Source of the DNA: a virus
Virus record (IMG/VR): IMGVR_UViG_3300036781_000821
Location: 27,888 to 91,887 of that record
DNA: 64,000 nucleotides
Reading direction: 5' to 3' (one strand)
How positions within the stretch are numbered: position 1 is the stretch's first letter; each line of letters begins with the position of its first letter. The notes beneath the pieces were generated by a model. That model ran no database searches and had not been told where the DNA came from. It was given only the letters and a program-made list of their open reading frames with translations. This document shows, piece after piece, positions 5,251-43,367 of the stretch. Position numbers and translations under genes: made by a program.

Positions 5251-5252
5251 CG

Positions 5253-5651: not shown

Positions 5652-5671
5652 TTCTCTCTTTCGGTTTGGGG

Positions 5672-6867: not shown

Positions 6868-6869
6868 TT

Positions 6870-18060: not shown

Positions 18061-18989
18061 GCTGCCCTCGCTTTCTCCACTGAACTCACCAACTTCACGA
18101 TCCGATTTCGCAGCGTGATGTCCGTCATACCACCTCGATTCGCCACGTCATCGCAATACTGGATCATTCCCTGTTCATCGCGAGAGAGGCCGGCAACTTG
18201 AGCCCTCACAGCGTCTTCACCCTCAGCCAACAGCTTTTCCACGATGCCGTAGAGCCGTTTCCACTGCGCTTGTTCTCTCTTCGTGGTTTCAGTACGCGCC
18301 GCATCCGCACGTTCCTTCGCCTTGGCTTTCGCCGCAGGTTGCGGATCTGGCGCGCCCAGGTTGCCTAGCCAGCTCAGCAAGAACGTTCGCGTCATGGGCT
18401 TGCCCGGATACTTGATCTTGGATTTGTTCTCCGCGAGCTGTGCCTCGCGCTCAACTTCCAAATGGCGATAGGCCGGGCTTGCCTTCAGCTCCTTCAGGTA
18501 TTCGGGAGTGACTTGATCGAAGCCGACGCGCGGCGCAGCCGGTTCCTCTCTTCTTCCATTCCGTTCCATTCCATTCCCTTCCATAGGCACTTCGCCGCAG
18601 CGTGGTGCGGTTTCGCCGCATGAAGGTGCGAGATTGTCGGAAGCTGCTGCCTCCGTGTCGAATAGCTCCAGCCAACCGATCTTAAGAAGCCGCGGAATTG
18701 CCTCCTCAAAGACCGCTTCAGAGCCATGCGTCATGCGCGCTAAAGACCCCGCATCATGGGCCACCGCACCCTCCCGCAGGAGAGTGCCGCGCATGTCGCA
18801 CTTGCTTGCGACCTCCACAATCAGCGCCCAAGCGCCGAAGTGGGACATCCCATTCGCGTGGTGCAGTAATTCAGTGAAGCCGTCGCCATCGTGCTTATTG
18901 GGCATCGGAACCCATTCCATGCGTTTCAACTCACGTGTGCGGTTGTTCTCGAAGAGATTGGCCCACTCTCTGACGCGAAGGACTTTCAT
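18057..18989 (-). CDS. Phage replisome-organiser-like protein
   Basis: ATG at 18989 overlaps the DUF1376-HNH stop (ATGA), supporting this start over 19025. The 310-aa protein has an N-terminal winged-helix-like region (residues about 1-110, with REWANLF and a later ARMTHGSEAVFEEAIPRLLKIG HTH-like segment), a low-complexity linker and a basic helical C-terminus. This layout fits DnaD/DnaT-like or phage O-like replication initiators. The family is inferred, not proven. Confidence 0.55.
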   Translation of the reverse strand: MKVLRVREWANLFENNRTRELKRMEWVPMPNKHDGDGFTELLHHANGMSHFGAWALIVEVASKCDMRGTLLREGAVAHDAGSLARMTHGSEAVFEEAIPRLLKIGWLELFDTEAAASDNLAPSCGETAPRCGEVPMEGNGMERNGRREEPAAPRVGFDQVTPEYLKELKASPAYRHLEVEREAQLAENKSKIKYPGKPMTRTFLLSWLGNLGAPDPQPAAKAKAKERADAARTETTKREQAQWKRLYGIVEKLLAEGEDAVRAQVAGLSRDEQGMIQYCDDVANRGGMTDITLRNRIVKLVSSVEKARAA

Positions 18990-19366
18990 AACCGCGCTGC
19001 TTTTCTCCGGTTGCACGAACCGCATAACGGTTGAAGATTGCGTTCTTCGTCGGTTCCACCTTTCGATACCGGCATAATATGATCAACTTGAAGATCCATC
19101 GAAGTGCTGCAATGAAGGCATCGGCCCGCTGCCAGCACCCGACGCCGAACGTCAGGGGATAACTTACCTCGCTTGAAACGCGGCGCAACTGGCCCGAATC
19201 GGACAGCCCCAATGAATGCAAGACCTTTAAATGGCTCACGAACTCCAAACAGGCATGATTCGCAAAGACGACGAAACAACGCACCTTCCTGCTCCAGACT
19301 CATCATCTGGACGTTCGCATCAGCCAGGTAGTCCCCGGCATAGAACTGGAAGGCGGGGGATTTCAT
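18986..19366 (-). CDS. DUF1376-like N-terminus fused to HNH nuclease
   Basis: Residues 1-33 (KSPAFQFYAGDYLADANVQ, then MMSLEQEGALFRRLC) match the start of DUF1376 phage replication-associated proteins. From about residue 70 an HNH domain follows: AAGRCLHC, then DLQVDHIMPVSKGG, then NLQPLCGSCNRRK, giving the Cys pairs and the DH/N/H residues. The DUF1376 part seems cut short, so this is either a true fusion or an HNH insertion into a former DUF1376 gene. It overlaps genes on both sides by four bases. Confidence 0.75.
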   Translation of the reverse strand: MKSPAFQFYAGDYLADANVQMMSLEQEGALFRRLCESCLFGVREPFKGLAFIGAVRFGPVAPRFKRGKLSPDVRRRVLAAGRCLHCSTSMDLQVDHIMPVSKGGTDEERNLQPLCGSCNRRKAARL

Positions 19367-19947: not shown

Positions 19948-20739
19948 CTACGATGCTTCCGCCAGCCGCTTCATATCGTCCAACGCCTCTTTGTTGGAGC
20001 AATAGAAGTTTGGGATTTTCTCAATCTTCGGATCGCTCTTGAGGTAGATCAACGCAGCAGCAGCCGGAGTTCCCATGCAAAACTCCATCGCCCGACCCGC
20101 ATCACCAGCAAGATGAACAACCCATCCCGCCTGGCAATGCGTCGTGTCGCAGGAGTGCCAGTTGTTCATGTCCAGCGCGTCGGGTTTGCACGCGGCCTCA
20201 TATACCGCTTTGTGAATGTCTTTAATGAACGGCACGCCATTGAGGTCGGCACCGCTCAGGACGGCATCGCGCAGGTCGGCACCGCGCAGGACGGCATCGC
20301 GCAGGACGGCACCGCTCAGGACGGCATCGCGCAGGTCGGCACCGCGCAGGACGGCATCGCGCAGGTCGGCACCGCGCAGGTCGGCACCGCGCAGGACGGC
20401 ATCGCGCAGGACGGCATCGCGCAGGTCGGCACCGCGCAGGTCGGCACCGCGCAGGACGGCATCGCGCAGGACGGCATCGCTCAGGACGGCACCGCGCAGG
20501 TCGGCATCGCTCAGGACGGCATCGCGCAGGACGGCATCGCGCAGGTCGGCACCGCGCAGGTCGGCACCGCGCAGGACGGCATCGCGCAGGTCGGCACCGC
20601 GCAGGACGGCATCGCGCAGGACGGCACCGCTCAGGACGGCATCGCTCTTAACAGCAGCTTCCAACGCCAGTTTCCAACTATCCGTTTCAATGGAGAAAAG
20701 CACGCTCCCCGTCCAACGACTCTTGATTTCAAACTTCAT
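19948..20739 (-). CDS. Pentapeptide-repeat protein
   Basis: 263 aa. After an N-terminal region of about 35 residues come about 27 consecutive five-residue units of the type A(D/V)L(R/S)(D/G), which form a right-handed quadrilateral beta-helix. A C-terminal globular part (about 95 residues, with HSCDTTHCQAGWVVHLAGDAG) follows. Some such proteins mimic DNA and bind gyrase; others are scaffolds. Units with Val in place of Asp/Asn are unusual. The underlying DNA is built from almost identical 15-base units (separate entry). Confidence 0.85.
   Translation of the reverse strand: MKFEIKSRWTGSVLFSIETDSWKLALEAAVKSDAVLSGAVLRDAVLRGADLRDAVLRGADLRGADLRDAVLRDAVLSDADLRGAVLSDAVLRDAVLRGADLRGADLRDAVLRDAVLRGADLRGADLRDAVLRGADLRDAVLSGAVLRDAVLRGADLRDAVLSGADLNGVPFIKDIHKAVYEAACKPDALDMNNWHSCDTTHCQAGWVVHLAGDAGRAMEFCMGTPAAAALIYLKSDPKIEKIPNFYCSNKEALDDMKRLAEAS
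20239..20645 (-). repeat. Near-perfect 15-bp tandem array
   Basis: About 27 head-to-tail 15-bp units, essentially two versions on the plus strand (GGTCGGCACCGCGCA and GGACGGCATCGCGCA) with occasional GCTCA endings. They encode the pentapeptide units. The low divergence points to recent expansion by slippage or recombination. Because 15 is a multiple of three, all frames stay open, creating long spurious ORFs on both strands. Confidence 0.95.
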
Positions 20740-20927
20740 TTTTTCCTTGGGTTTGTGACCCTCGAAGCCAAGGCACAGGCGAACGCTCGATGACTGATGA
20801 TTGTGAAGGCAGCAGAAGAAAGAACGCTGCCCATGCCTTGGCCGCGAGAGTCTGGATTAACTGCCTTCACGAGGCCGACCATAAAGGCCAGCGTGAGCGT
20901 GTCAACACAATTTTTCGGATTCGGCAT
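20736..20927 (-). CDS. Possible small protein, 63 aa
   Basis: Its stop overlaps the pentapeptide-gene ATG (ATGA). The product is weakly hydrophobic in the middle (LTLAFMVGLVKAV). No family recognised; supported only by the overlap and orientation. Confidence 0.4.
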   Translation of the reverse strand: MPNPKNCVDTLTLAFMVGLVKAVNPDSRGQGMGSVLSSAAFTIISHRAFACALASRVTNPRKK

Positions 20928-21360: not shown

Positions 21361-22512
21361 ATGGCGACTGTCACAAATCCGCTGCCCTCCGGCTTCCAGC
21401 CGCCGCCCGCTGTTCTCGCGCCGAATTGGGCGGGAAGCGCGTTAAAGGCCGAAAGCACGTTCCACCAGCTCTCGCCATACATCGGAAAACTCAAGTCCTC
21501 CATCGCCGGATCGTTGATTGAACAGTTCACGCAACCGTCAGATGTGGTATACGATCCGTTCTCGGGAAGTGGCACGGTTGCGCTCGAAGCGTGGATTGCC
21601 GGCCGCCACATCATCGCCAACGATCTAAGCCCATACGCGGCGATCCTCACGCGCGCAAAACTTTTTCCCTACGATTCGCTTGAAGACGCGCTCGACGACA
21701 TGGAGGATCTTGAGGACTTCGCCGCAGCCGTGGCCGATAGCCTCGACCTTCGCACCGTTCCCCGATGGGTGCGCGAGTTTTTCCATACCCGAACCCTTCG
21801 CGAAACTCTCGGGTGGACTTACGTACTCAGGCAACGGCGCCGCTGGTTTCTGTTGGCATCCCTCATGGGCATCTTGCACCACCAGAGACCGGGCTTTCTA
21901 TCATTCCCGAGCAGCCACACCGTGCCCTATTTGCGGAAGAAGGCTTTCCCGCCCGCGAAGTTTCCCGATCTCTACGAATACCGCTCGCTGGCAGACCGCT
22001 TCGAGGCCAAGATTGAACGTGCCTTTTCCCGTGTTCCCGATCTGGACAGCGGAATTAACCGCGCATGCTTCCAGACATCGGCGCATCTCCTTACGCCCGC
22101 GCAGAAGGTGGATGCCATTATCACGAGCCCGCCGTACATGCGGCAGCTCGATTACGGCCGCGACAACCGCCTCCGACTTTGGTTCCTGGGTGTTCCCGAC
22201 TCCCGCGCGCTCGATCACGAGATTTCGCCGCGCAAGGACGCTTTCCTGAAGCTCATGGCGCGTTGCTTCAAGAAGTGGAAGTCGATCTTGAAGCCCGATC
22301 GCTATTGCATCCTCGTCGTGGGCGACGGCAGCAGCGAGTTAAAAGATGCCAATCTTCCCGTACTCATCTCCCAGATCGCGCAGAAGGAAGGGTTCGTCCA
22401 CGTCCTCGACCACACTGAAGCCATACCGAACGAGCGCCGGGTCCGCCGCGGACTGACGGGCAGCACGTCGGAAACAATCGTCATCCTTCGCAACGCATCG
22501 CGCAGTACATAG
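21361..22512 (+). CDS. DNA methyltransferase (N6-adenine/N4-cytosine type) of a three-gene cassette
   Basis: 383 aa. Motif I, DPFSGSGTV, is at residues 65-73 (S-adenosylmethionine binding) and motif IV, TSPPY, at 255-259 (catalysis), in I-to-IV order, with a long central insertion. It transfers a methyl group to an exocyclic amino group in DNA. The start is the only ATG after an in-frame TGA just upstream. Ten bases separate it from the DUF262 gene. It stands on the opposite strand to the surrounding phage genes. Together with the two genes downstream it suggests a self-protecting defence module. Confidence 0.85.
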   Translation: MATVTNPLPSGFQPPPAVLAPNWAGSALKAESTFHQLSPYIGKLKSSIAGSLIEQFTQPSDVVYDPFSGSGTVALEAWIAGRHIIANDLSPYAAILTRAKLFPYDSLEDALDDMEDLEDFAAAVADSLDLRTVPRWVREFFHTRTLRETLGWTYVLRQRRRWFLLASLMGILHHQRPGFLSFPSSHTVPYLRKKAFPPAKFPDLYEYRSLADRFEAKIERAFSRVPDLDSGINRACFQTSAHLLTPAQKVDAIITSPPYMRQLDYGRDNRLRLWFLGVPDSRALDHEISPRKDAFLKLMARCFKKWKSILKPDRYCILVVGDGSSELKDANLPVLISQIAQKEGFVHVLDHTEAIPNERRVRRGLTGSTSETIVILRNASRST

Positions 22513-22522
22513 GAGCGACACA

Positions 22523-23605
22523 ATGCAGCAGGTTTTCAACACGCGTAACTATAGCGTTCGAGATTTTGAAGAATGGCAGCAACGCGACGAGCTTGTACTA
22601 CAGCCCAAATTCCAACGCCGCGAGGTATGGAGCGAAAAGGCTCGCTCCTATTTGATCGACACGATCATCCGAGGAAAGCCCATACCCAAGGTCTATATGC
22701 GGCAGGATGTCAATCCCAAGACCCGCCGCGTATTGCGCGAAATCGTCGATGGGCAACAGCGACTTCATTCCGTTCTCAACTTCTTGAAGGATGGATTTAA
22801 GATCAGCCGCGCCCACAACGAAGAGTTTGGCGGAAAAACATTCAGCCAACTGAACGAGGACGCGCAACGCGACATCCTCAAATACGAGTTCGCCGTTGAC
22901 CTCCTTCAGGACATGCCGGACAACGAGATTTACAATATCTTTGCGCGGATCAACACCTATTCCGAGAAGCTGAAGGATCAAGAATTACGCAATTCAAAGT
23001 GGTACGGCTTCTTCAAGTCTTCCGTTTATTTGCTCGCCGAAGAGTTCACCACATTCTTTGTAGAAAACAAGCTCTTCACCGCGAAAACGATCCTCCGCAT
23101 GGCCGAGGCCGAATTCATATCGGATCTTCTCCTGTCGATGCACGAGGGAATCGTCGCGCGGTCCAAGATGGTGCTCGACAACGCATACAAAAAATACGAT
23201 GATGATTTCCCGTCTCGCAAAACCTACGAAAAAAGGTTCCGTGAGACCATTGACATCATCAAGGCCATCCACGGTGATGACCTCGGGGAATCCGAATTTC
23301 GAGCGCAGCGGCTTTTCTATCCGATGTTCTGCTCGATTTACCACCTCAAGTACGGCCTTCCCAATTTCACGCTTCCCCGAAAGACGATCAAGGTATCGGA
23401 CTACCCCAAGATGAAGACCGCCCTTGAGTCGGTCGATACGCTACTGGAAGAGATCAAAGAATCTCACACCAACCCGGCTGCGCTCGCTCTTTCGGATGTT
23501 GACAGCAAGTTCTACGACTCAATAACAGTGCACTTCGTCCACGCGGACAAGCGCGTAATTTCCACGACCTACATTTGCCGAAAACTCGCCAAGGTATTGA
23601 GCTAA
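22523..23605 (+). CDS. DUF262 (ParB-like/GmrSD-N-type) protein
   Basis: 360 aa. Characteristic DUF262 motifs are present: LQPKFQRREVW (about 26-36), IVDGQQRLHSV (about 74-84) and IFARINTYSEKL (about 139-150). The domain is a ParB/Srx-fold NTPase-like module found in GmrSD type IV restriction enzymes and several defence systems. The C-terminal half is helical, with no HNH motif, so the nuclease partner would have to be separate. An AGGAG-type site (gAGCGACAC region is weak) is not clear; close spacing suggests co-transcription with the methyltransferase. Confidence 0.85.
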   Translation: MQQVFNTRNYSVRDFEEWQQRDELVLQPKFQRREVWSEKARSYLIDTIIRGKPIPKVYMRQDVNPKTRRVLREIVDGQQRLHSVLNFLKDGFKISRAHNEEFGGKTFSQLNEDAQRDILKYEFAVDLLQDMPDNEIYNIFARINTYSEKLKDQELRNSKWYGFFKSSVYLLAEEFTTFFVENKLFTAKTILRMAEAEFISDLLLSMHEGIVARSKMVLDNAYKKYDDDFPSRKTYEKRFRETIDIIKAIHGDDLGESEFRAQRLFYPMFCSIYHLKYGLPNFTLPRKTIKVSDYPKMKTALESVDTLLEEIKESHTNPAALALSDVDSKFYDSITVHFVHADKRVISTTYICRKLAKVLS

Positions 23606-25665: not shown

Positions 25666-25886
25666 CGTTTCGTCTTCCGGTCGACGATAAATCTGACCTT
25701 GCTCGGATCGTTCCAGTCCCGTTGACCCTTGACGACAAACTTCAGGTGACGAAGCGCGAACAACCGCGCCGCCATTGCGTCTTTGGCGGCCACGGTGAAC
25801 TCGCTCTTTAGCTGAAGATTGAGCGCGAGCAGCGCGAGCCCGACACGCGAGCGAACCTTCCGTTTGCGGGACACGCGCGTGGACAT
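25662..25886 (-). CDS. Small basic protein, 74 aa
   Basis: Very basic N-terminus (MSTRVSRKRKVRSR) and C-terminal VDRKTKR; the middle is helical. It is linked by overlaps to the SSB gene upstream and the membrane protein downstream. Possibly nucleic-acid binding; no family recognised. Confidence 0.55.
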   Translation of the reverse strand: MSTRVSRKRKVRSRVGLALLALNLQLKSEFTVAAKDAMAARLFALRHLKFVVKGQRDWNDPSKVRFIVDRKTKR

Positions 25887-26239
25887 TATTTGCCGCCTTT
25901 GGTTTGTTGTTGATCCTTCGGCCCATCGAGGAGAATCACGCGATCCACCACGACCGCTAGACGGCTATGACGCACCTGGTCTTGGCCGTCCCACACCTTC
26001 TTGACGAGATGGCCCTCGATGAACACACCCTTGCCCTTCTTCACGTACTTCTCGAAGATGTCGGAGGTCTTGCCCCACGCCTCGAAGTCGATGAAGTTCA
26101 CGCCACGCTCGCGGGTATCCCCTTGACCCACGGTGTAGTTCACGCCGAGCGAACCCGTCGTGACCTTGCTGCTCTTGGTTGTTCTCGTTTCGGGATCGGC
26201 GGCCACGTGGCCGGCCAACTGCACTTTGTTGTAGTCCAC
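25886..26239 (-). CDS. ssb: Single-stranded DNA-binding protein (first copy)
   Basis: GTG at 26239 follows AAGGAAG closely and opens DYNKVQLAGHVAADPE, the start of the OB-fold. FIDFEAWGKTSDIFEKYVKKG and VFIEGHLVKKVWDG match the SSB core. The product is about 117 aa and lacks the usual acidic DDIPF tail, unlike the second SSB at 26.8 kb. It coats ssDNA in replication or, given the relaxase, transferred plasmid DNA. Confidence 0.85.
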   Translation of the reverse strand: MDYNKVQLAGHVAADPETRTTKSSKVTTGSLGVNYTVGQGDTRERGVNFIDFEAWGKTSDIFEKYVKKGKGVFIEGHLVKKVWDGQDQVRHSRLAVVVDRVILLDGPKDQQQTKGGK

Positions 26240-26769: not shown

Positions 26770-27186
26770 TTAAAACGGAATGTCATCGCCGCTTTCGTCT
26801 ACGGCTCGACCTTCCTCTGGCGGCGCTTCCTCTCGCCTTGGCTCGCGTTTCTGCGAATCAGGCGACGAGAGAAATTGAACCCGATCAGCGCGAATGCGTG
26901 TGCGGCTTTTCTTTTCACCACCGGATTCCCATTGCTCGGTTTTCAGCCGCCCTTCTACCAACACGGCCCGGCCCTTGGCGAGATATTCCTTGCAAGCTTC
27001 GGCTTGACTGCCCCAGACCTCCACCTCGCCCCAATAGACCTCTTCCTTCACCCCGCCGGAATCGGTTTTATATTTGTGGTTCACTGCCAGCCCAAAATTG
27101 GACACGGCAGTTCCTTTCGGCGTGTACTTGCATTCGGGGTCGCGGGTGAGATGCCCAACGAGAATGACGCGATTGTAATTAGGCAT
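26770..27186 (-). CDS. ssb: Single-stranded DNA-binding protein (second copy)
   Basis: ATG at 27186 opens MPNYNRVILVGHLTRDPE; VYWGEVEVWGSQAEACKEYLAKG is the typical second half of the OB-fold. The C-terminus ends DDIPF, the peptide that docks SSB-interacting proteins. About 138 aa. It overlaps the ERF gene by eight bases, so it probably works with the annealing protein in recombination. Confidence 0.92.
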   Translation of the reverse strand: MPNYNRVILVGHLTRDPECKYTPKGTAVSNFGLAVNHKYKTDSGGVKEEVYWGEVEVWGSQAEACKEYLAKGRAVLVEGRLKTEQWESGGEKKSRTRIRADRVQFLSSPDSQKREPRREEAPPEEGRAVDESGDDIPF

Positions 27187-27796
27187 TTTTGGCCGCGCCT
27201 TTCTTCTTGGGTTCCACACCAAGCCGTTTGGCGGTCGCGGCGTAGAGCGACGCGAAGTGGTTGAGTTCTTGCTGGCTCAGTTTGTCCTTTATCGCCGTCA
27301 CCATCTTGCTGGTGTTTTCCAAGTCACCCGCGCTTTCGGAGGCAAGGAACTTCGATTCGATGTCCTCTAGCTTGTCTTTCGACACCAAGCTTGGGACTGC
27401 TCGCTTCATCGCGCCCTCAGCATCGTCGTCTTCAGTCACAACCCCGACAATCGCAGCCAGTGAATAGCGCCGTGCGTAGGTAATTGCGGAACCGACAGCT
27501 TGCGGATCAGTCTTAACCGCCGTCATCGTCAGCGTCCCGCTAATAAACTGCCCGGATTTGTGCATGAGCACCGTCTCGACGCTCACCGTACCCGGCACAT
27601 CTTCGGGCGCGAATACCTGAGACACGGCCAGATCGTTTGCCGTCAACGCTTCCCGGCAAGCATCCGTGACGCTTTCCAAATCCGCATACTTCGACTTGAA
27701 GTAGGGATTGTCCGCATCCTTCAGGGCTTTCTTCACTGCTTTCTGCGTGAGCACCAACGCCGCAGCCAACTCTCCAATGGAATCGCTTCTATTCAT
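27179..27796 (-). CDS. erf: ERF-family single-strand annealing protein
   Basis: 205 aa. The ERF signature is clear: NPYFKSKYADLESV near residue 30 and DPQAVGSAITYARRYSLAAIVGV near residue 100, followed by EDDDA. ERF proteins anneal ssDNA in phage recombination and genome circularisation. Lys-rich C-terminus. Overlaps the SSB gene, an operon logic seen in many phages. Confidence 0.9.
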   Translation of the reverse strand: MNRSDSIGELAAALVLTQKAVKKALKDADNPYFKSKYADLESVTDACREALTANDLAVSQVFAPEDVPGTVSVETVLMHKSGQFISGTLTMTAVKTDPQAVGSAITYARRYSLAAIVGVVTEDDDAEGAMKRAVPSLVSKDKLEDIESKFLASESAGDLENTSKMVTAIKDKLSQQELNHFASLYAATAKRLGVEPKKKGAAKNA

Positions 27797-29061: not shown

Positions 29062-29961
29062 ATGACCAAGGAAGCGCTCAGCCAGATCACGGACGTTCTT
29101 TTCGAGCGTCTTTGCGAGGCGATGGAATCCGGCGCGAACGACGATGTGAAAGCCGTTCTCAAGTCAATGAGCGCGTTTCACGACTACAGCTTTGCGAATG
29201 TCTGCCTCATCCTGAGCCAGTTCCCGAAGGCTACGAAGGTCGCGGGTTTCCGCACGTGGGAGAAATTCGACCGCCACGTGGTGAAAGGATCAAAGGGAAT
29301 CGGTATCCGGGTTCCCATGCGCTACAAGAAAGGCGAGGCGACCGAGGAGGAGCAAGCGACCGGAATCTTTTTCGGCGTTGGGCATGTGTTCGACATTTCC
29401 CAGACCGAGGGCGCACCACTCCCCGACTTTCACAGTGATCCGGTTAGGGGCGAACCCGCCGCATTGTTGGAGAAGTTGCGCGAGAACATCACCGCGAGCG
29501 GGATCAAGCTTGACTACGTTGAACACCTTGCTGGAGCCGAAGGTGTTTCCAAGGGCGGCGCGATTGCGATCAAAGACGGCCACGAACGCCCGAAAGACTT
29601 CGCCGTTCTTTGCCACGAATGGGCGCACGAACTCTTGCATAGGGATGGCAACCGCCACGCGCTGACCAAGACGCAAAAGGAAACGGAGGCCGAAGCGACT
29701 GCCTACATCGTCTCCACCGCAATCGGCCTCGATCTTGGCAACAGTTCCGCGAACTACATCGCGCTTTACAACGGCGACAAAGCCACGCTCAAAGCCAGCA
29801 TGGACAGGATTCAAAAAACCGCGCAGTTCATTTTGAAGGGGCTGGGTTACGGACGGCAGGAAGAACCCTACCACAGCACACGCCCCTCTTTAGCCCTCAG
29901 CCAAATAACCCCGGCGAGTTACGCCAACCCGCCACCAAAACAGAAAGAACCAGCAATATGA
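29062..29961 (+). CDS. ardC: ArdC-like antirestriction protein with zincin domain
   Basis: 299 aa. The N-terminal ~125 residues have the ArdC ssDNA-binding pattern (YSFANVCLILSQ, then GFRTWEKFDRHVVKGSKGI). Residues 185-189 HEWAH with downstream ETEAEATAYIV form a metallopeptidase (zincin) site. ArdC proteins protect incoming single-stranded plasmid DNA from host restriction. Its co-operonic ParB and the relaxase downstream support a mobile-plasmid lifestyle. Confidence 0.85.
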   Translation: MTKEALSQITDVLFERLCEAMESGANDDVKAVLKSMSAFHDYSFANVCLILSQFPKATKVAGFRTWEKFDRHVVKGSKGIGIRVPMRYKKGEATEEEQATGIFFGVGHVFDISQTEGAPLPDFHSDPVRGEPAALLEKLRENITASGIKLDYVEHLAGAEGVSKGGAIAIKDGHERPKDFAVLCHEWAHELLHRDGNRHALTKTQKETEAEATAYIVSTAIGLDLGNSSANYIALYNGDKATLKASMDRIQKTAQFILKGLGYGRQEEPYHSTRPSLALSQITPASYANPPPKQKEPAI

Positions 29962-31493
29962 CGACAGAACTACCCGTAAAGTCCCTCGAACCGTCCCCGA
30001 CGAACCCGAGGAAAACTATCGACAAAACCACAATCGCGGAACTGGCCGAGTCCATAAAGACAAACGGCCTCCTGCAGCCGCTTCTCGTCCGGCCCCTAGG
30101 CAAGAGCAAAGACCGCTATGAAGTAGTTTGCGGTAATCGCCGCTTGCTGGCCTTGCGGCAAACTGGCCTCGAAAAATGTCCGGTAACAGTCCGTGAGCTG
30201 ACCGACGAGGAAGCCGTCGACGCGCAGCAGGTCGAGAACTTGCAGCGCGAGGACGTGCCACCGCTCGAAGAGGGAGAGGCTTTCGCCGCACTGGTGAAAA
30301 AGTACAACGTGGAAATGGTCGCGTTCAAGGTGGGCAAGACTCCGGCGTTCATTCGCCGCCGCATCATGTTGACCAGACTAACGGGCGATGCCCGGACGCT
30401 CCTGCAAAAAGGCGAGTTGCCGATCAAGTCGGCAGAGATGATCGCCGGGATCGAGGACGAGAAAGCGCGAAAGGCATTGGTCGACGGTCTCCGATGGGCT
30501 GGGAAGTCGCCCGAGGATATAGCGGGAGCTATTCGCCAGACGATTCTTCAGAAGATCAGTAAGGCCCCGTTCGACACGCGCAAGGTTTACGGATGCGCCG
30601 ATGAGCAGCCGACAACCTGCGACGTTTGCCCGTTTAACACCGCAGCCAAGAGCGGTAGTCTGTTCCCCGAATTGGCGAAGGACGCGCAATGCACAAATGG
30701 CAAATGCTTCCGGGCAAAGACCGACGCGCATTACCAGATCAAGGTTGACGAACATTTGCAGAAAGGTGGGAGCAAGTTGGGCGAGCAGGATGCGAAGAAG
30801 TGCTGGCCGCGCAATTACTATAGCGGCGGGGACATGCCTGTCAGCGATCGCGCACCGTTCATCGAATTGAGTGTTGTGCAGCCGCTCTTCAAAAAGGCGA
30901 AGGTGGATTTGCCGAAGGATAAAGTGTTTATCGTTCGCAATCCGAGCACCCAGAAGGTTCACTACGTCGTCGCGCGGGATTTCGCTAGCAAGGTAATGCC
31001 CAAACCAAAGAAAGAGGAACCGACACGCAGCAGGGGAGAGTCTGCCGCCGCGAAGCTCAAGTACGAAATCGAAACCGCCGTGCGCGAGCAAGCGCAAGTG
31101 GCTTACGCGACGGAATTCGCAAAGCTGAAGGCGATTGACGGTAGAATCCACCGCGCACTCGCGAACATTCTTGGCGACGAAATCCATGGAAGCGATTGGG
31201 AATTGTTTGCCAAAGCTTTCGCAACCGAGACCCCTCCACAGGGCAAGGGCTACGATGCGGCGCAGAAGTGGGGCAAGAAATTCTTGGCAGGACTGGACAA
31301 GAATCAACTCCCGGCTTTCATCGTGTTGGCCATCGCCATGAAGGACTGCTATGGCGCGACACCGGAAATACGTGCATTGGCTACAGCCGCAGGAGTGGAT
31401 TGCAAGAAACTCGAAGCAAACGTAACCAAACAGGTCAAGGCTCAGCTTGCGGAGCGAAAGAATGCGGAACCCGCGACCAAGGCGGCAGCATGA
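29958..31493 (+). CDS. parB: ParB/RepB/Spo0J-family partition protein
   Basis: 511 aa. N-terminal ParB domain: SPTNPRKTIDK, LLQPLLVRPLGK, EVVCGNRRLLAL, QQVENLQREDVPPLEEGEAF, then an HTH (AFKVGKTPAFIRRRIMLTRL). A Cys-rich segment (TTCDVCPFNTA and CTNGKCF) and a Lys-rich C-terminus follow. ParB loads on centromere-like sites to segregate the replicon. No ParA is visible nearby, which is odd and may mean ParB acts in another role. ATGA overlap with ArdC. Confidence 0.88.
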   Translation: MTTELPVKSLEPSPTNPRKTIDKTTIAELAESIKTNGLLQPLLVRPLGKSKDRYEVVCGNRRLLALRQTGLEKCPVTVRELTDEEAVDAQQVENLQREDVPPLEEGEAFAALVKKYNVEMVAFKVGKTPAFIRRRIMLTRLTGDARTLLQKGELPIKSAEMIAGIEDEKARKALVDGLRWAGKSPEDIAGAIRQTILQKISKAPFDTRKVYGCADEQPTTCDVCPFNTAAKSGSLFPELAKDAQCTNGKCFRAKTDAHYQIKVDEHLQKGGSKLGEQDAKKCWPRNYYSGGDMPVSDRAPFIELSVVQPLFKKAKVDLPKDKVFIVRNPSTQKVHYVVARDFASKVMPKPKKEEPTRSRGESAAAKLKYEIETAVREQAQVAYATEFAKLKAIDGRIHRALANILGDEIHGSDWELFAKAFATETPPQGKGYDAAQKWGKKFLAGLDKNQLPAFIVLAIAMKDCYGATPEIRALATAAGVDCKKLEANVTKQVKAQLAERKNAEPATKAAA

Positions 31494-31913: not shown

Positions 31914-32258
31914 CTATTGCACAAGACACCGAGCTTCAATCTTTGCGATCTGCCATTTGTGCTTTGGCGTTTCGGCAAACTGGTCCATGCGCTGCCCCTC
32001 TTCGAGAACGTCCTGAACACGGCGTTCAAAAACGGTGTGAAGCGCGAGCAGGTTTTTGCCTGTGATCTTCACCAGCCAGTACGAGAATACGACCAAAACC
32101 ACATCGTCCTTGATTTCGCAGCCGCCGAATTGAAGCCACGGGAAAATCCAGCCCTCAGCCTTGTTAGCCTTTTTGAGCGTCAACGTCTCGCTCATCGTCG
32201 GAGCAGGCAACGCCTTGGGCATTACCCGGTCTGTCACTTTTGTTTCTAACGTATTCAT
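31914..32258 (-). CDS. Hypothetical protein linked to the relaxase, 114 aa
   Basis: Its ATG overlaps the stop of the relaxase gene (ATGA), so it is translated downstream of the relaxase. Mixed alpha/beta sequence with no recognised motif. Could be a transfer accessory protein. Confidence 0.6.
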   Translation of the reverse strand: MNTLETKVTDRVMPKALPAPTMSETLTLKKANKAEGWIFPWLQFGGCEIKDDVVLVVFSYWLVKITGKNLLALHTVFERRVQDVLEEGQRMDQFAETPKHKWQIAKIEARCLVQ

Positions 32259-35005
32259 CTGCTTACCTCCTGTGCCATGCTGACCCCTTGAGTTTGGGCG
32301 GCGGCGACGCTAGCACGCCCAGAGTTACCGTACGACCGTCCCGCTTGCTGCGTATGGGCGTGAGCCACGTTAACCGCTTGCGCCTTCGCCGCAAGCTCCA
32401 TTGCCGTCTGACGCGCCCCCGAGCGATTGACGCTGTCCCGCAGACCTTCCAAGTTACTCGTGAACACCTGGCACGTCTCCCGCGCCCGAGACACCGACAC
32501 GTAAAACGCGTCGTGGCGCATGTGGTCGCCGGAGACGATGACGTTATCGACCGTCTTGGACTGTGCAATGTAGCTGGTGGATGCCCAACCGTGTTTCATG
32601 TGCCCGAAGTCGTGATTGATTGAACGACCATCCTTCAGCCGCATCGCCGTCCCGTCCTGCGCCTTCTCCACCTGCACGCGCTCGCCGTTGGTCAGATCCA
32701 AGTCCCGGTCGTTTTTCTTCAGGATCAGGAAATCGCCATCGCAGACTTCGATTGAAGACTGTTTGTACACCGAGAAATTCTTGGCCTGTTTTGCAAGGTC
32801 CACTTCTTTCCCGCCGCGCAACACGCCGTCTTTCCGCACTTCGCCGCCGACGTAGGCAACGCCGTTCTTTGCCGCTGTAACCTCTAAATTCTTTCCCGCA
32901 TTCGCGCCCTTGAAAAATGCCAGTACCAGCCCCGGCTGGTAGAACTCCGCTTTCTGCTTTTCCTCATTCGACCAATTCAACGCTTCCAGTTTTGGAATCG
33001 TCACGCCCTCTTTGGCGAGATCGCCCATTTCCTTTCGCTTTGCGCGGATGGCGGCCGTCAGCTCCTCGACCTCGGCATTGGACGGCGTGACCACCACGGT
33101 ACTGCCGTGCAATTGGGAATGAGCTTCGGCCACCAACGTTGCACGCTCGCGTCGATCCACTTCCTTGATCGTTCCCATTTCTTGCAGCTTGGCGAAGGCC
33201 CGCTCCGGTTCTTTCCACGCATCCTTGACCGCCTCGTGATATGCCGGGAATTGTTCGGGATCTTGCCGCACGTTCAAGTCGAGCATTTTGGACGCGAGAC
33301 GGCTTTCCTTCTCCATCATCCGCAGCGCATCGCACGCGGTTACCGGGCCATGTTGTTCGGTGTCACCAGAGAACATCATCCGCGCACCATAGCGATGGCA
33401 TACGTCCATCAGTTTTTTCATGTCCTCGCCGCCGACCATTCCCGCCTCGTCGACGATCAGCACGCGCCCTTTCATCAGGGCTTGCTCCTCGCGGCAGCCC
33501 AGGAAGCTGGCTATGGTCATGGGATTCTCGACACCTTCCTCGGCCAGCGACTTCACCGCCGAATGCGTTTGCGCCACCACCGTGCAAACCTTTCCGTTTT
33601 GTCCAAGACCGCGCACCATTTCCGCGATCAGGTGAGTTTTGCCCGCGCCGGCGATGCCCTGGACGTTCACCGCCCAATCCGTCGATTGGAACGCCCAGTC
33701 CAAGACTTCCTGCTGTTTTTCGTTCAGGCCCTTGCCCGTGTACGGAATTGTGCCGAGCTTGCCGTGGGCGCCAACGCCCTCATTGACTATCGCGACCATG
33801 TCTTCCTCCCGCTGATACGCTTCCTTGGTCGTGCATTCGCCGTCAACGGCCAACACCGCCTTCGACTCTTTCAGCACGTTCCACACGGTTTGAACGTCCG
33901 AGAAATTGACATGGCCGCGATTAAACCGGAGCGCAGCGGCTAGCACATCGACTTCCTTGGCGACTGAGACTTGCGAGAAGGTGTGTTTAATCGCCGACTG
34001 CACAGCTTCGTGCGCGGACTGGTAGGTGATGTCCTCGCCGCGACCGGAAAGCTCGATGGCGTGATCCCGCGCCGCCCGAAGCCGTTCGCTCATGCCGGGA
34101 AACTTGGCTTCAGCTCGCGCCTTTTGCATGGCAATGACATCGGCGGTGCTAATCTCGATTAAGTTGTCGGGCCGCGTTTCGCGGTACAAGTGCGAGATCA
34201 GGTTGTCCGACGGGTGAATGCCGTGGGGATTTTTGGCCTTGTCGTTCTTGAACGCCTCGACCGCGGCGGCCACAGCCTTCGATCCCTGGCTAAACTCCTC
34301 GCTCTCCTCCTGCCGCACACAGGCCAGACCGAACCCCATTTCCTTGTCGTTCTTGTACGGCATTGTCCGTAGAACATAGCCGCCGTCTATGCACAGCCCG
34401 GCCAGAATGTTGCGGTAGACCTCGGTCGCGAGCGCCTTGGCCTCATACATCTTTTCGGTTTGGAGGGCTTTCCAACGTCCCTCCTCCACATCCTGGGTCA
34501 GGTTCCCGCAGGTCAGATGGCTGTGAAGGTGTGGATCTAGCGCGCGGGAGCAGTCATGTTCAAACCGCGCATAGATCAAATTCCCGGTCAGCCTGGTCTC
34601 GTCTTTTTTCCCGAACAGCCGTACTCGCGTCCCGGCCTGTTTCTCGACGAACTCCATCGCCTCGCTGACGGCCTGCTTGTGCCACTCGGGAATGCGTTCA
34701 TCCCCGCCGATCCGCCACTGGATTGATAGATCCTTCGGGCAGGCGAACACCCAATCGTAAAACGTCCGACCGTTCTCCCGCTCGTGGCTGAATCGTTGGC
34801 GAAGCTTCGCGCCTGTTAAGGGATCAAGACCTTGCCGCATCCTCTCGAAAGCTTGCTCCGTGACCTCACCTTCAAGTCCCAGCAATCGCGCTCCGCGACC
34901 TTTCCACGTGCCAACCGATTGATCGTTTTTGTCGAGGTAATCCTTATAGGAAAGGTGGCTTACGAAGTACGTGTCACCTCGATAGAGGGGCATTCCGTTG
35001 AGCAC
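32255..35005 (-). CDS. MobF/TrwC-type relaxase-helicase
   Basis: 916 aa, GTG start. The relaxase domain (about 1-300) has N-terminal tyrosines in DTYFVSHLSYKDY and the three-His metal site: H150 and H161/H163 in HDCSRALDPHLHSH. The helicase part has Walker A GIAGAGKT (451-458) and DEAGM (520-524), with RecD-like motifs later (YVSVSRARE). Such enzymes nick at oriT, stay covalently bound to the strand and unwind it for conjugative transfer. Finding one beside a complete virion module is unusual. Confidence 0.92.
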   Translation of the reverse strand: MLNGMPLYRGDTYFVSHLSYKDYLDKNDQSVGTWKGRGARLLGLEGEVTEQAFERMRQGLDPLTGAKLRQRFSHERENGRTFYDWVFACPKDLSIQWRIGGDERIPEWHKQAVSEAMEFVEKQAGTRVRLFGKKDETRLTGNLIYARFEHDCSRALDPHLHSHLTCGNLTQDVEEGRWKALQTEKMYEAKALATEVYRNILAGLCIDGGYVLRTMPYKNDKEMGFGLACVRQEESEEFSQGSKAVAAAVEAFKNDKAKNPHGIHPSDNLISHLYRETRPDNLIEISTADVIAMQKARAEAKFPGMSERLRAARDHAIELSGRGEDITYQSAHEAVQSAIKHTFSQVSVAKEVDVLAAALRFNRGHVNFSDVQTVWNVLKESKAVLAVDGECTTKEAYQREEDMVAIVNEGVGAHGKLGTIPYTGKGLNEKQQEVLDWAFQSTDWAVNVQGIAGAGKTHLIAEMVRGLGQNGKVCTVVAQTHSAVKSLAEEGVENPMTIASFLGCREEQALMKGRVLIVDEAGMVGGEDMKKLMDVCHRYGARMMFSGDTEQHGPVTACDALRMMEKESRLASKMLDLNVRQDPEQFPAYHEAVKDAWKEPERAFAKLQEMGTIKEVDRRERATLVAEAHSQLHGSTVVVTPSNAEVEELTAAIRAKRKEMGDLAKEGVTIPKLEALNWSNEEKQKAEFYQPGLVLAFFKGANAGKNLEVTAAKNGVAYVGGEVRKDGVLRGGKEVDLAKQAKNFSVYKQSSIEVCDGDFLILKKNDRDLDLTNGERVQVEKAQDGTAMRLKDGRSINHDFGHMKHGWASTSYIAQSKTVDNVIVSGDHMRHDAFYVSVSRARETCQVFTSNLEGLRDSVNRSGARQTAMELAAKAQAVNVAHAHTQQAGRSYGNSGRASVAAAQTQGVSMAQEVSR

Positions 35006-35445
35006 GTGACCAGCATGAGGCAGCTTGGAAAGAGCGTCAAATTTGGGCTTTTAGGGGATCTGGAGGTAAATCCAGGATAGTGGGCCTCCCCCTATCAGAC
35101 GAGCTACTGAGAAGAGAAACATCTACCCCTAAGCGCTTCGCGCTTGGGAAAACCGCGTTTGCAGGGGCGCGCCAGGACCAGGCTACTCCAGAGGCGCATG
35201 GTATACTGGACTTGAGCTTAGGCTCACGAAAAAAAAACTTCAAAACACAAACTCAAAACCTACACACTTCACAAACTTAAAAACTACACACAAAATTAAA
35301 CTCCAAAAAAAACTTACTCTTTAAAAAACTTCTTCTGCTTTTGCTTTTTGCTGATTTTGGGCTCACCGGCTGGAGCCACCGTTTGAAGAGATGCACCTTG
35401 GAGTAGTGTAGGGACAATCTTCCTGACGGCCGGGTAGGAGATTGT
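35006..35445. other. Candidate oriT / regulatory region with hairpins and a G-free tract
   Basis: No convincing gene. A hairpin at 35128-35148 (CCTAAGCGC, TTC, GCGCTTGGG; one T-G pair) and a second at 35213-35226 (TGAGC, TTAG, GCTCA) precede 108 bases without any G (35229-35336), mostly A with C. It lies directly upstream of the relaxase gene, where MobF oriT sites usually are. Strong strand asymmetry plus inverted repeats fit an origin of transfer; a promoter region is the alternative. Confidence 0.45.
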
Positions 35446-36073: not shown

Positions 36074-36086
36074 ATTTACCGTCGTC

Positions 36087-36131
36087 TTCCCAAGCTGGAC
36101 GTCGCCGGTTCGACCCCGGTCTCCCGCTCCA
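36087..36131 (+). tRNA. 3' fragment of tRNA-Gly(CCC): attachment-site remnant
   Basis: The bases fit a tRNA from position 32 onward: loop TTCCCAA with anticodon CCC (36089-36091), 3' anticodon strand GCTGG, variable loop ACGTC, T arm GCCGG-TTCGACC-CCGGT, acceptor strand CTCCCGC, discriminator T and CCA. The sequence just upstream cannot pair to make the 5' half (CCAGC is needed). A break at the anticodon loop is a common crossover point for tRNA-targeting integrases. By convention the integrated element lies 5' of such a fragment. Confidence 0.75.
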
Positions 36132-36228
36132 ACATCTTCTTTTGCTAGTTGTTGTTAGGCGCAATCTTCGCGCCGCTCTTTTTCCCTCGTGACTCCGCAA
36201 GACTCCAATCGCGCGGTACCCTCGAATT

Positions 36229-37047: not shown

Positions 37048-37165
37048 CCTGCGACCAGCGCGCCGAGGTGTTCCGCGATCTCGCCCAGGGTCCTGATGCT
37101 GCCGGGTGTTCGCCCGGTCCGGTCGAGGTGGAGGGTCTTGATGCCGAGCGCTCGTGGAATGTCGT
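37044..37165 (-). pseudogene. 3' remnant of a HAD-hydrolase-like gene
   Basis: Minus-strand reading gives HDHDIPRALGIKTLHLDRTG, then TPGSIRTLGEIAEHL and a stop, which matches the C-terminal end of HAD-superfamily hydrolases (D-x2-DI-x-A-x-x-xGhxTh). The 5' part is missing: an in-frame stop lies just upstream. Its last part contains the direct repeat that recurs beside the integrase at 39.9 kb. Confidence 0.6.
37077..37112. repeat. Direct repeat, copy 1 (candidate att core)
   Basis: 36 bp: GATCTCGC, five bases, then a 23-bp block GTCCTGATGCTGCCGGGTGT + TCG. The same arrangement occurs at 39869-39904 with the 23-bp block identical. Lies inside the HAD gene remnant. Confidence 0.75.
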
Positions 37166-39868: not shown

Positions 39869-39904
39869 GATCTCGCGTAGCGTCCTGATGCTGCCGGGTG
39901 TTCG
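39869..39904. repeat. Direct repeat, copy 2 (candidate att site next to integrase)
   Basis: Same 36-bp arrangement as 37077-37112 (23-bp block identical, 33 of 36 overall). The integrase stop codon begins at the next base, the normal position of an element-end attachment site. Confidence 0.75.
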
Positions 39905-41011
39905 TTATTGGAGTGGTTCCTGTTTGGCGAGTGCGGTGGTGAGGTGGTCGATGGCTTCCTGTTGCCGTTTGATGCCGACTTTGTTGTAGACGTTTGTGCT
40001 GACGTCGACGGTGTGCCCGCATTGTGCTGCGACGATGGTTGCGTCCGCGCCGTTCGCGTTTAGCAGTGTGACGGCGGTGCGCCGGAGTGCTTGGAAGGTG
40101 ACGCCGTTGAGCTTGAGTTTGTCGAGTGTTGGTTTGAGGTAGCGTCGCCAGTAGTTCCCGTGCGATACGGGCTTGTTGCCGGGTTCGTTCGGGAAGACCC
40201 AGTTGTCCTCTTTGGCGTCGGGCGTTGTCTCGCGCCAGGCGGTGAAGTCTTCGCGGATGCTCGTGCTGATGGCGGCGGTGCGTACGCTGTGATGCGTCTT
40301 TGGGGTTTGGATGATGCCGCGGTAGATGCCGCGCGTGATGTGCAGCCCGTCGGGTTGGAGGTCGTGCCATTGGAGGCCGAGGATCTCGCCGGGGCGTAGC
40401 CCGCTGATGCCTGCGAGGCTGATGACTAGCTTCTCCCGGAGGGGGAGGGCTGCGAGGAGGGTGCGGAGTTCATCGAGGGACAAGACGCGTTTGTCTCGTT
40501 GATGGTTGCGTGTTGGCGCGTGCAGGAGTTCCGCAGGGTTGCGTTGCAGGAGTCCGTCGTTGACCGCCATGCGAAATATTTGTCGTAGGTCCCACCGGAG
40601 GTGTCCGACCGTGCTCGTGCTAAGCCCGGCGCTGGCTTTCCGGTCGAGGAAGTCCTGGAGGATGGTCCGGTTGAACGACGAGAGCGGTCGGTTCCCCTGC
40701 TCCTTGAGGAGGTGGTGGTCCACGCGGTCCTTCGTGGTCATCGCGGTGCTCGGTTTCCATTTGCGCTCGTACCAGGGGAAGACGACGTGTCGCGTGAACC
40801 CTTGGAGGCTGTACTCGACGAGGCCACGCGCTTCGTTCACGGGCTGTACAAGTTTGGTGAGCTCGGCTTCTGCGTCGGCCTTGGTCATCGTGGCGCAGTT
40901 CCCGAGTTTCTTCGAGCGGTGGTGACCGTCCTCCCACCATGCCCCGAGCCATGTCCAGACGCCCCCGCTCTTGCGCTTCCGTAGGCTCCCGTGTTGTGCT
41001 CTCGCGCTCAT
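39905..41011 (-). CDS. int: Tyrosine site-specific integrase
   Basis: 368 aa from the ATG at 41011, which overlaps the excisionase stop. Domains: N-terminal beta-rich AP2-like DNA-binding region (WTWLGAWWEDGHHRSKKLG), core-binding helices, then the catalytic domain with Arg in GISGLRPGEI, the second Arg in FQALRRTAV (the usual HxxR His is replaced by Gln), His in CGHTVD and the Tyr nucleophile in STNVYNKV. The style resembles bacterial (Acidobacteria-like) integrases although it ends an otherwise archaeal-looking operon. An extended frame to 41896 is spurious. Confidence 0.9.
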   Translation of the reverse strand: MSARAQHGSLRKRKSGGVWTWLGAWWEDGHHRSKKLGNCATMTKADAEAELTKLVQPVNEARGLVEYSLQGFTRHVVFPWYERKWKPSTAMTTKDRVDHHLLKEQGNRPLSSFNRTILQDFLDRKASAGLSTSTVGHLRWDLRQIFRMAVNDGLLQRNPAELLHAPTRNHQRDKRVLSLDELRTLLAALPLREKLVISLAGISGLRPGEILGLQWHDLQPDGLHITRGIYRGIIQTPKTHHSVRTAAISTSIREDFTAWRETTPDAKEDNWVFPNEPGNKPVSHGNYWRRYLKPTLDKLKLNGVTFQALRRTAVTLLNANGADATIVAAQCGHTVDVSTNVYNKVGIKRQQEAIDHLTTALAKQEPLQ

Positions 41012-41226
41012 GTGTGTGCTGCACGAACAACAATGCCTTGATCCTGTCGGGAAAGCCAATCGAAAAGCGTCTCGCGACGCACTAACACGCGTCGTCCGAG
41101 ACGTACTGCTGGGAGTCGTTCTGCGCTTGTGATGTGACCGTTGATGAGTTTGCTCACGTGGGCTTTGGAGACGCGCAGGAGTGTTGCGACTTCGTGGAGC
41201 GTGAGGAGGTTTGGCGTTTCGTTCAT
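41008..41226 (-). CDS. xis: Excisionase-like HTH protein
   Basis: 72 aa. MerR/excisionase-type wHTH: LLTLHEVATLLRVSKAHVSKLI, then LPAVRLGRRVLVRRETLFDWL. Overlaps both the ATPase stop and the integrase start by four bases, so it is produced with the integrase and probably sets excision direction. Confidence 0.85.
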   Translation of the reverse strand: MNETPNLLTLHEVATLLRVSKAHVSKLINGHITSAERLPAVRLGRRVLVRRETLFDWLSRQDQGIVVRAAHT

Positions 41227-43367
41227 TTGGTTGTGGTGAGTTCTTCGATGAGGTCGAGGACGTCGACGAGGATGAGGTGGTGTCGTGCGTCGTCGTCGAG
41301 GCTGTCGCCGAGGTCGATGATGAGGTCGCTGTTGCCTTCGAAGATGGCAAGGATCGTGCACGGGATGCCTGCGCTGGCATTCTTGTTCGCGTTGTTTGCG
41401 CCGGTGCGTGCGGGGTCGCTGACTTCGACTTCGAGGGCGACGACGCTGCCGACCGGGATGTCTTCGGTGGGGTGGCTGCGTGCGGCCTCACGTAGCGCCG
41501 TGAAGAACTGGTCGTTCTTCTCCGTTCGCGTGAAGAGGAGGTCGACGCTCTTGGTCCCGACCGTGACTTCGATGTCGCTTTCGGGGATGAGCTGGTGGAG
41601 TCGCTTGACGAGGTACCGGTGTTGTGCGCCATCACCGCCGCGCGTGCCCGGCGGTCGTTTGCTGCCGACTCGTTCGTATCCTGCGTCGGTCGCTTGGAGC
41701 GCGATGGCGCGACCGCCGGTCCGTCGGTGCGCGGTGATCGGCGTGGCCGTGAGGAGCTTGAGGCGGAGGAGCTGTCGTTTGGCGCGGTCGCCGATTTGTG
41801 CTTTGAGGTTGCAGGCTTCGTAGGATTTCTTGACGGTGGCGATGCTTGCGTTACAGACGTGCCGTAAAAGCGCTTCTTGAGCCGCGTTGAGCGCAATCTT
41901 TCGCGACGCGCTGGTCTCCGTCTCGCTCGGTGCTTCCTCCGTCGTCACGCTTGGCGAGAGCGGCGCTGGTGGGAGGAGGGCTTCGGCGCGGTCGCGTGCT
42001 GCCGCGAGTTCTTCCGTGGCCACTTCTTTGTTGCTTGTCGGTGCTGGGTACGTTGCGAGGAGTGGTTCGGGGTAGCGGTTCCCGAGTCGGAGGATGACCT
42101 GGCCGCGTTGGAGCTGGTGGTCGAGGCACTCGTGCTGTGCGGGCGTGAGGCGAAGTGTCCTGCGGAGTTCTTCGCTTTCTGTCCCGTCCGTTACGCGCAG
42201 GACTGCTTGGAGGTTGGTGTTTGCTCTGATGATCTGGTTTGCGCTGCGCCAGCTGGTGAGTGTGATGCCCCATCCGATGCCTGCTTCTCTGGTTGCGCCG
42301 TACGTGTGCGACAGGAGTGGTTCGCCGGTGATGTGGCGGGTGTTCGCGTCGAAGAGTTGGAGTGTTTCGTCGCCGACGACGAACGTGTGGAGCTCGTCCC
42401 TGATTCCTTGGCTTTGGTGGTACGTGTGGCGGAGTTCGGTCCAGAACGTGAAGAGAAATTCGTATGCGTGGAGTCGGCTCTTGCTGCCGAAGTATGCGGG
42501 TCGTGTCATGAGTGTTTGCATCGTGTGGCAGCGTGGCGTGGCGGCGGTTGCGATGCCGGGGAAGGTCGTGCAGAGGTCTCGGATTCGGGTGAGGGCGTTG
42601 AGTTGTGCGTCTCGGAATTGGTACGTGCTGCTTTTGCCGCCGAGCGCTTGGATTGCCTCGATGAGGTGATGCATGTTGGGGCCGTCGGGGTGTTTCGTGA
42701 CCGCGTCGTTGAGGGCGGCGGTGAGGATGTGGTGCATATGGAATCCGCCGTAGTACGCGTCGCAGAATTTGCGGACGAGGAGCGCGTGGTACGCTTCGCG
42801 GGAGAGAAACGCGGGGTGGATGAGGATGTTGAGCGGAATCGTGTCGTCGACGATGATCGTGTCTTGTTGTCGCGTGGCGCGCGCGAGCCAGTCGCGTTTT
42901 GGGTCGTAGTAGCAGACCTGTGTTTCCGGTGATGTGGTGTTGAGGTTGTTGAGGACGTGTTCGAGGAACGCGGTTTTTCCGCTGCCGGTGCTGCCGATGA
43001 CGGCGAGGTTGCTGCAGAGCTCGACGGGAGTGATGCCGACGGGTGCGTTATCGCGTTCTTGGTGGGCGAGGAGGACTGGTCCGTTGATGCGTTCGCGTGG
43101 CGCGATGTGGAATGGGTTGTCGACGAGTTCCTCCTCGTATTGTTTGAGCGCTCCGAGGACGCGTTGCATGCTGAGGTCGCGGAGTCGGCTGGGCCAGGAC
43201 GGTACTTGTTGGAGGAGTCGGTCGAGTCCGGGCACGCGGTGCACGAGGCGGTCTTTGGTGATGCGCGTGAGTGCGGTTTGGTATTGCTCCTCTAGAGTCG
43301 GAGGGTCCAGGCGATGGCGCGTTTGACGAGCGTGATGCGGTTCTTTCGTTGTTCGTTCTTCTTGCAT
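41223..43367 (-). CDS. HerA/VirB4-like transfer ATPase with C-terminal wHTH and nuclease-like domain
   Basis: About 714 aa from ATG 43367. Walker A GSTGSGKT lies about 125 residues in; LHTFVVGDETLQLF gives Walker B. After a Pro/Thr-rich linker come a helix-turn-helix-like segment (AQEALLRHVCNASIATVKKSYE) and a C-terminal alpha/beta region with SVDLLFTR and VVALEVEVSD that resembles a PD-(D/E)XK fold. Such ATPases pump DNA in conjugation. A similar ATPase-plus-nuclease build recurs at 58 kb. The start is uncertain because it overlaps the zinc-ribbon gene by 76 bases. Confidence 0.75.
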   Translation of the reverse strand: MQEERTTKEPHHARQTRHRLDPPTLEEQYQTALTRITKDRLVHRVPGLDRLLQQVPSWPSRLRDLSMQRVLGALKQYEEELVDNPFHIAPRERINGPVLLAHQERDNAPVGITPVELCSNLAVIGSTGSGKTAFLEHVLNNLNTTSPETQVCYYDPKRDWLARATRQQDTIIVDDTIPLNILIHPAFLSREAYHALLVRKFCDAYYGGFHMHHILTAALNDAVTKHPDGPNMHHLIEAIQALGGKSSTYQFRDAQLNALTRIRDLCTTFPGIATAATPRCHTMQTLMTRPAYFGSKSRLHAYEFLFTFWTELRHTYHQSQGIRDELHTFVVGDETLQLFDANTRHITGEPLLSHTYGATREAGIGWGITLTSWRSANQIIRANTNLQAVLRVTDGTESEELRRTLRLTPAQHECLDHQLQRGQVILRLGNRYPEPLLATYPAPTSNKEVATEELAAARDRAEALLPPAPLSPSVTTEEAPSETETSASRKIALNAAQEALLRHVCNASIATVKKSYEACNLKAQIGDRAKRQLLRLKLLTATPITAHRRTGGRAIALQATDAGYERVGSKRPPGTRGGDGAQHRYLVKRLHQLIPESDIEVTVGTKSVDLLFTRTEKNDQFFTALREAARSHPTEDIPVGSVVALEVEVSDPARTGANNANKNASAGIPCTILAIFEGNSDLIIDLGDSLDDDARHHLILVDVLDLIEELTTTK

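Follow-up and report, generated by a model that had tools for sequence, protein, structure and literature searches.

The element described here is probably a temperate tailed phage, integrated in a tRNA-Gly(CCC) gene, that holds an IME mobilization module. It lies partly in a 64,000-nucleotide stretch of viral DNA (the window), which corresponds to bases 27,888-91,887 of the 91,887-bp IMG/VR record IMGVR_UViG_3300036781_000821, classed as linear. We annotated the whole record, including the part to the left of the window (107 genes); window coordinates equal record coordinates minus 27,887, and negative values lie left of the window. An exact 48-bp direct repeat, the 3' half of tRNA-Gly(CCC), is found at record positions 20323-20370 and 63973-64020. 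A repeat that completes a tRNA gene, together with an adjoining integrase gene, typically marks integration into the 3' end of a tRNA gene. The initial annotation had read the block as a phage-plasmid; because of the att borders next to an integrase, we have corrected this to an integrated prophage with a captured IME module. The borders and the integrase are as follows.

Window -7564 to -7517 (record 20323-20370): attL, whose repeat copy completes an intact tRNA-Gly(CCC)
Window -7463 to -6378: g20, tyrosine integrase, starting 53 bp inside the attL copy (Phage_integrase 4e-11)
36086 to 36133, plus strand: attR, exact 48-bp copy of the 3' half of tRNA-Gly(CCC)

ARAGORN detected no tRNA within the window, the intact copy being outside it. 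No third att copy above chance level was detected within the element, so the 43,650 bp between the repeats represent one element, and we read the block as a single att-bounded prophage in a bacterial tRNA-Gly(CCC) gene. Its length is within the size range of tailed-phage genomes. Tetranucleotide composition shifts to the right of attR, and the relaxase agrees best with the virion genes in codon usage, both in keeping with this reading. From left to right, the prophage contains the integrase, an HTH protein, the coupling protein g24, the virion genes, and the terminase, followed by a methyltransferase/GmrSD pair, SSB-like genes, ERF, ArdC, ParB, the relaxase, and two small genes. With its integrase and att sites, it has the integration apparatus of an IME. 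A tandem arrangement of a prophage and an IME was also considered, and was rejected for lack of an internal att copy.

The genes by which a tailed prophage is recognized (terminase, portal, major capsid, and lysis genes) are all present, the portal being the weakest of them. They lie with the relaxase gene inside the shared 48-bp att borders, in agreement with the earlier placement of relaxase and virion genes on one element.

1142 to 7994, minus strand: tail and other virion genes (PHROG matches)
1142 to 2725, minus strand: virion structural protein/amidase-like (PHROG), with large uncharacterized proteins up to 6870
6870 to 7994, minus strand: tail fibre/collar (PHROG)
7994 to 8683, minus strand: endolysin, 229 aa (PHROG 17001 endolysin, 8.7e-15)
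9005 to 9976, minus strand: major capsid protein, 323 aa (PHROG 1357 major head protein, 8e-27)
11422 to 13317, minus strand: probable portal, 631 aa, a weak call (SU10_portal 1e-4, below the Pfam cut-off; 24%, 4e-8 to annotated portals by tblastn)
15375 to 16796, minus strand: terminase large subunit, 473 aa (31-34% to three Akkermansia phages, 4e-57 to 1e-50)

No tape-measure gene was recognized in the element, and the gene set is podovirus-like. The best relative of the terminase among Verrucomicrobiota genomes matches at 37% (2e-76); searches with this protein gave 12 matches in 387 Verrucomicrobiota genomes and three weak matches in 396 Acidobacteriota genomes. In the six terminase regions that were compared, the terminase alone was shared in order, besides one endolysin match and one repeat gene. 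MobF was absent from 11 of the 12 genomes with a related terminase and so does not belong to the core genes of this terminase lineage. Outside the att borders, the left flank of the record contains an RPA-type replication initiator, nearest to those of Acidobacteriota plasmids, and a primase. The RPA, the tRNA, and the relatives of the relaxase tentatively suggest an Acidobacteriota host; the best relatives of the terminase, however, are found in Verrucomicrobiota.

Two further loci of the prophage may be mentioned here. The gene at 20113-20793 is built from a 15-bp unit repeated approximately 27 times (AQDGI/AQVGT repeats), and a Verrucomicrobiota genome (G644) has a repeat gene of similar kind, with up to 84% identity over approximately 87 aa, approximately 11 kb from a related terminase. 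At 21361-23605, a DNA methyltransferase gene is followed by the gene for a GmrSD N-terminal-domain protein, possibly forming a modification/restriction or defence pair.

The mobilization module and its associated genes comprise the following.

Window -4958 to -3405: g24, TraG/VirD4-like coupling protein (TraG-D_C 30.6 bits, cut-off 22)
29062 to 29961, plus strand: ArdC-like antirestriction protein, 299 aa (N-terminal domain, Pfam ArdcN 4.9e-9; HExxH motif)
29958 to 31493, plus strand: ParB-family protein, 511 aa (Pfam ParB_N 4.9e-24; HTH_ParB)
31914 to 32258, minus strand: small gene overlapping the 3' end of the relaxase gene (gene call; no Pfam match)
32255 to 35005, minus strand: MobF (TrwC/TraI-type) relaxase-helicase, 916 aa (Pfam TrwC 5e-61, AAA_30 1.3e-33)
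35113 to 35147 (approximately), minus strand: candidate oriT, a CCCAAGCGC-GAA-GCGCTTAGG hairpin and then GGTAGATGTTT, 121 bp before the relaxase start
35246 to 35300: AT-rich direct repeats, ACACAAACTCAAA-like, three copies with a 24-bp period (repeat search)

The relaxase scores 207 bits against the Pfam TrwC model (cut-off 25), can be aligned over 94% of its length with the MobF protein of a Runella plasmid (30.5% identity), and also aligns with PDB chains of TrwC and of F TraI. All the hallmarks of MOBF are present: a TrwC-type HUH domain with an HxH metal triad, two N-terminal tyrosines, and a C-terminal SF1 helicase. In a family alignment of 93 sequences (the window protein and 92 relatives), H150, H161, and H163 are identical in every member; R154, D157, Walker A/B, and the Q and R residues of the helicase do not vary either, and Y13 and Y23 occupy both catalytic-tyrosine columns. 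Five of 64 conserved columns are changed, none of them catalytic, and by this measure the relaxase appears free of decay in its conserved residues. These results bear out the initial description of an intact histidine site and helicase motifs, and the profile matches listed above support the ArdC-like and ParB assignments that accompanied it. The small gene that overlaps the relaxase gene resembles the one following mobF in the Runella plasmid only marginally and is not clearly shared with that plasmid.

Relaxases are very rare on phages, as had been proposed. The relaxase search matched at least 5,000 plasmid records, compared to four partial matches among 50,697 annotated phage records (INPHARED), the longest of which covers 21% of the protein. 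When viral contigs were scanned with single proteins (the relaxase, the capsid protein, and a 1035-aa ATPase from the left flank), no close relatives appeared.

The statement that no type IV secretion genes are visible holds within the window, and needs amending for the record: a coupling-protein gene, g24, is located 3.4-5.0 kb to the left of the window start. In the VirB/D4 search across the record that the initial annotation had called for, a D4-like protein was thus recovered (g24, by TraG-D_C), and VirB4 (PF03135) was not found. No mating-pair genes were found, so that a helper would be needed for transfer, as had been anticipated. Walker A of g24 is intact, and its Walker-B Asp is replaced by Gly, one of the differences at 9 of 29 conserved columns. 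Homologues of g24 are encoded divergently from mobF in Runella pSP2_3, and also in G001, G003, and G005. In a profile scan of 83 loci, 44 had a gene for a g24-type protein no more than 10 kb from MobF; by tblastn, ParB is near MobF in 16 of 81 loci and ArdC in 13 of 81.

In the integrated form the module is in two parts, with the integrase and g24 near attL and ArdC, ParB, the relaxase, and the candidate oriT near attR. On the predicted excised circle, the gap between the relaxase and g24 would be 1,128 + 2,558 bases (approximately 3.7 kb). Judging from its gene content, the independent element L068 in an Acidobacteriaceae genome is a virus-free counterpart of this module. L068 adjoins a tRNA-Gly(CCC) that is identical at 69 of 75 bases, and its integrase is 40% identical to g20; it also holds a coupling protein, a MobF with the hairpin and AGATGTCT upstream, and, by eye, an ArdC-like gene. 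Beyond its tRNA lie chromosome-type genes, and its 32-kb contig gave no virion match.

The hairpin site at 35113-35147 is the likely transfer origin, a candidate by similarity. The oriT-like sequence reads in full CCCAAGCGC-GAA-GCGCTTAGG-GGT-AGATGTTT, and the pattern CTTAGGN{1,4}AGATGT occurs once in the 64 kb and in 0 of 100 shuffles. In 77 deduplicated upstream regions of MobF relatives, AGATGTC was found in 18 on the coding strand and in 2 on the other strand, an enrichment that is descriptive, the motif having been chosen after looking. Most copies start two bases after a hairpin of the type CCTAAGC-NNN-GCTTAGG. The combination of hairpin and AGATGTCT was seen upstream of MobF at 11 recorded loci, L068 among them, and at others. 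We regard it as a candidate oriT for a MobF group that spans several phyla. In R388, the hairpin is followed by approximately nine bases and then by the nick, before a base that must be a purine (PMC4176350); the motif found here has the same layout, a hairpin and then a nic-like sequence. Compared to the family consensus, the window site has a spacing one base longer, and GTTT before C in place of GTCT before G or A, whereas the canonical hairpin/nic form is present in phage G004. The three nearest relaxases are without AGATGTC upstream and have no oriT in common with the window. The exact oriT pattern matched four times in IMG/VR, with MobF adjoining only in the G004 phage; given that one match in four is beside MobF, the bare motif is not specific. 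The AT-rich repeats at 35246-35300, next to the candidate oriT, are possible accessory-protein or iteron sites.

The altered positions of g24, including the lost Walker-B Asp, and the off-consensus nic-like site speak for partial decay, and they make conjugative function uncertain. One interpretation, which we find possible but somewhat unlikely, is that a phage and an IME recombined, that the virion genes spread the element, and that the mobilization genes are a non-working relic. The long branch of the relaxase, described below, would fit this interpretation as well. However, the relaxase is full length and keeps all its catalytic and helicase residues, with so few conserved columns changed, and the hairpin and AGATGT are still present. 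Furthermore, the coupling protein of a helper could stand in for g24.

Improbable, in our estimation, is a role of the relaxase-helicase in phage DNA replication, by rolling circle and with concatemers for the terminase, instead of mating. Relaxases of some integrated elements drive the replication of their own element too (see also PMC5704250), and no replicative helicase, primase, or polymerase was recognized among the scanned proteins of the prophage. An ERF-family gene and two SSB-like genes are also present in the prophage.

25886 to 26239 and 26770 to 27186: two SSB-like genes downstream of ERF (SSB by eye only)
27179 to 27796, minus strand: ERF-family recombinase (Pfam ERF 3e-24)

Against a role confined to replication, a coupling protein would be needless for that purpose, yet one accompanies MobF in about half of the loci scanned, and the gene at 18057-19025 resembles, by eye, a phage replication initiator.

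The phage-plasmid originally proposed, an extrachromosomal replicon with partition genes, is very unlikely. It would account for ParB and for the RPA-type initiator on the record, but attL and attR lie in tRNA-Gly with an adjoining integrase, a motif scan of the called genes showed no ParA partner inside the element, and the att borders enclose no recognized plasmid replication initiator, the RPA being outside them. An assembly chimera of a phage with a plasmid or IME is just as implausible: the element is known here from the assembled sequence of one metagenomic record, and tetranucleotide composition shifts right of attR, but the mobilization parts flank the virion genes on both sides within a single pair of identical att sites, in codon usage the relaxase is nearest to the virion genes (RSCU distance 0.046, with no lower value in its row), and the same combination is present on several other phage records.

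The presence of MobF on other phage records speaks for the preferred reading of a prophage with a captured mobilization module. In IMG/VR, nine distinct loci with MobF were recovered by two profile scans. Phage head, packaging, or tail genes are found on at least six of the other records (G003, G004, G005, G006, G007, and G008), and coupling proteins on G003, G005, G006, G007, and G008; none was found on G004. VirB4 was detected on 0 of the nine records, all of them possibly incomplete and that of the window included. In a quick relaxase tree, the window protein groups with Acidobacteriaceae relaxases (SH-aLRT 99) on a long branch, and the phage label requires at least four changes. The relaxases of G002, G003, G006, G007, and G008 form one clade on viral contigs, mostly with a coupling protein. 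Four members of this clade have virion genes of clearly different types, with contractile and non-contractile tails; G002 is a fragment on which no virion gene was positive when tested. We tentatively suggest that this intact tailed prophage may also be conjugatively mobilizable via its own MobF, oriT, and coupling protein, and that it may be one of several independent cases, for which the relaxase tree implies four or more origins, among phages of Acidobacteriota, Planctomycetota, and related phyla.

We infer that the integrase would excise the element as a circle, and that the joining of its ends would bring together the relaxase, attP, the integrase, and the coupling protein. In the lytic route, replication and packaging would follow by means of the virion and lysis genes. 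Such a route after excision by the integrase is standard prophage biology. Alternatively, the relaxase may nick the hairpin site, and the nicked strand would leave through the mating pore of a helper, a conjugative element already resident in the cell.

The DNA right of the prophage has features of its own. The right flank (38000-64000) differs in tetranucleotide composition from the prophage and the left flank and has more G+C; with two integrases and several large ATPases, it looks like a genomic island. An exact 23-bp direct repeat occurs in the flank right of attR at 37090-37112 and 39882-39904. Its second copy adjoins an integrase gene (39905-41011) related to the family of the prophage integrase, and the repeat and this integrase are possibly a second integrative element or a remnant of one. 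Three large TraG/HerA-like ATPases are encoded in the flanks, outside the prophage (L002:15514-18621; window 41223-43367 and 57965-59917). Each has a C-terminal stretch that is nuclease-like by eye, and in one of them an HTH domain forms the end of the protein.

Gene transfer by phages and gene transfer by conjugative elements are generally regarded as distinct. If the dual route is true, a virus could leave a living host by mating, past receptor barriers. A prophage with a mobilization kit, coupled with the recurrence of MobF on phages that differ in virion genes, makes this dual route testable. The family-wide hairpin and AGATGTCT could provide a concrete candidate origin with which to search Planctomycetota, Bacteroidota, Verrucomicrobiota, and Acidobacteriota for mobilizable elements.

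Known systems share parts of this combination. The MobF plasmids Runella pSP2_3 and R388 (TrwC) have the same relaxase family and the hairpin-plus-nic oriT layout, and pSP2_3, like the prophage, has a g24-type coupling protein, there divergent from mobF; unlike the prophage, both plasmids are without virion genes. Transfer in matings has been reported for the Streptococcus prophage Phi1207.3, formerly Tn1207.3 (PMC4260502, PMC9927172). For Phi1207.3, phage lysogenization was shown and no relaxase is named in the text (PMC9927172); in contrast to the prophage described here, no set of MobF, coupling protein, and oriT is described for it (PMC9927172). P1-like phage-plasmids, with the mobilizable plasmids that descend from them, likewise combine phage genes and a relaxase/oriT in one lineage (PMC10879196). 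That lineage is plasmid-borne, and most of its mob-bearing members no longer transfer as phages (PMC10879196), whereas our prophage is integrated and its virion module is present. There is also a parallel with IMEs, which have a tyrosine integrase, a tRNA attachment site, a relaxase, and sometimes a VirD4-type coupling protein, with no mating-pair genes (PMC5704250). The prophage resembles IMEs of tRNA 3' ends in these features, with g24 as a VirD4-like protein, and L068 is the nearest example found. Unlike in IMEs, the two halves of its mobilization module enclose the virion and packaging genes of a tailed phage.
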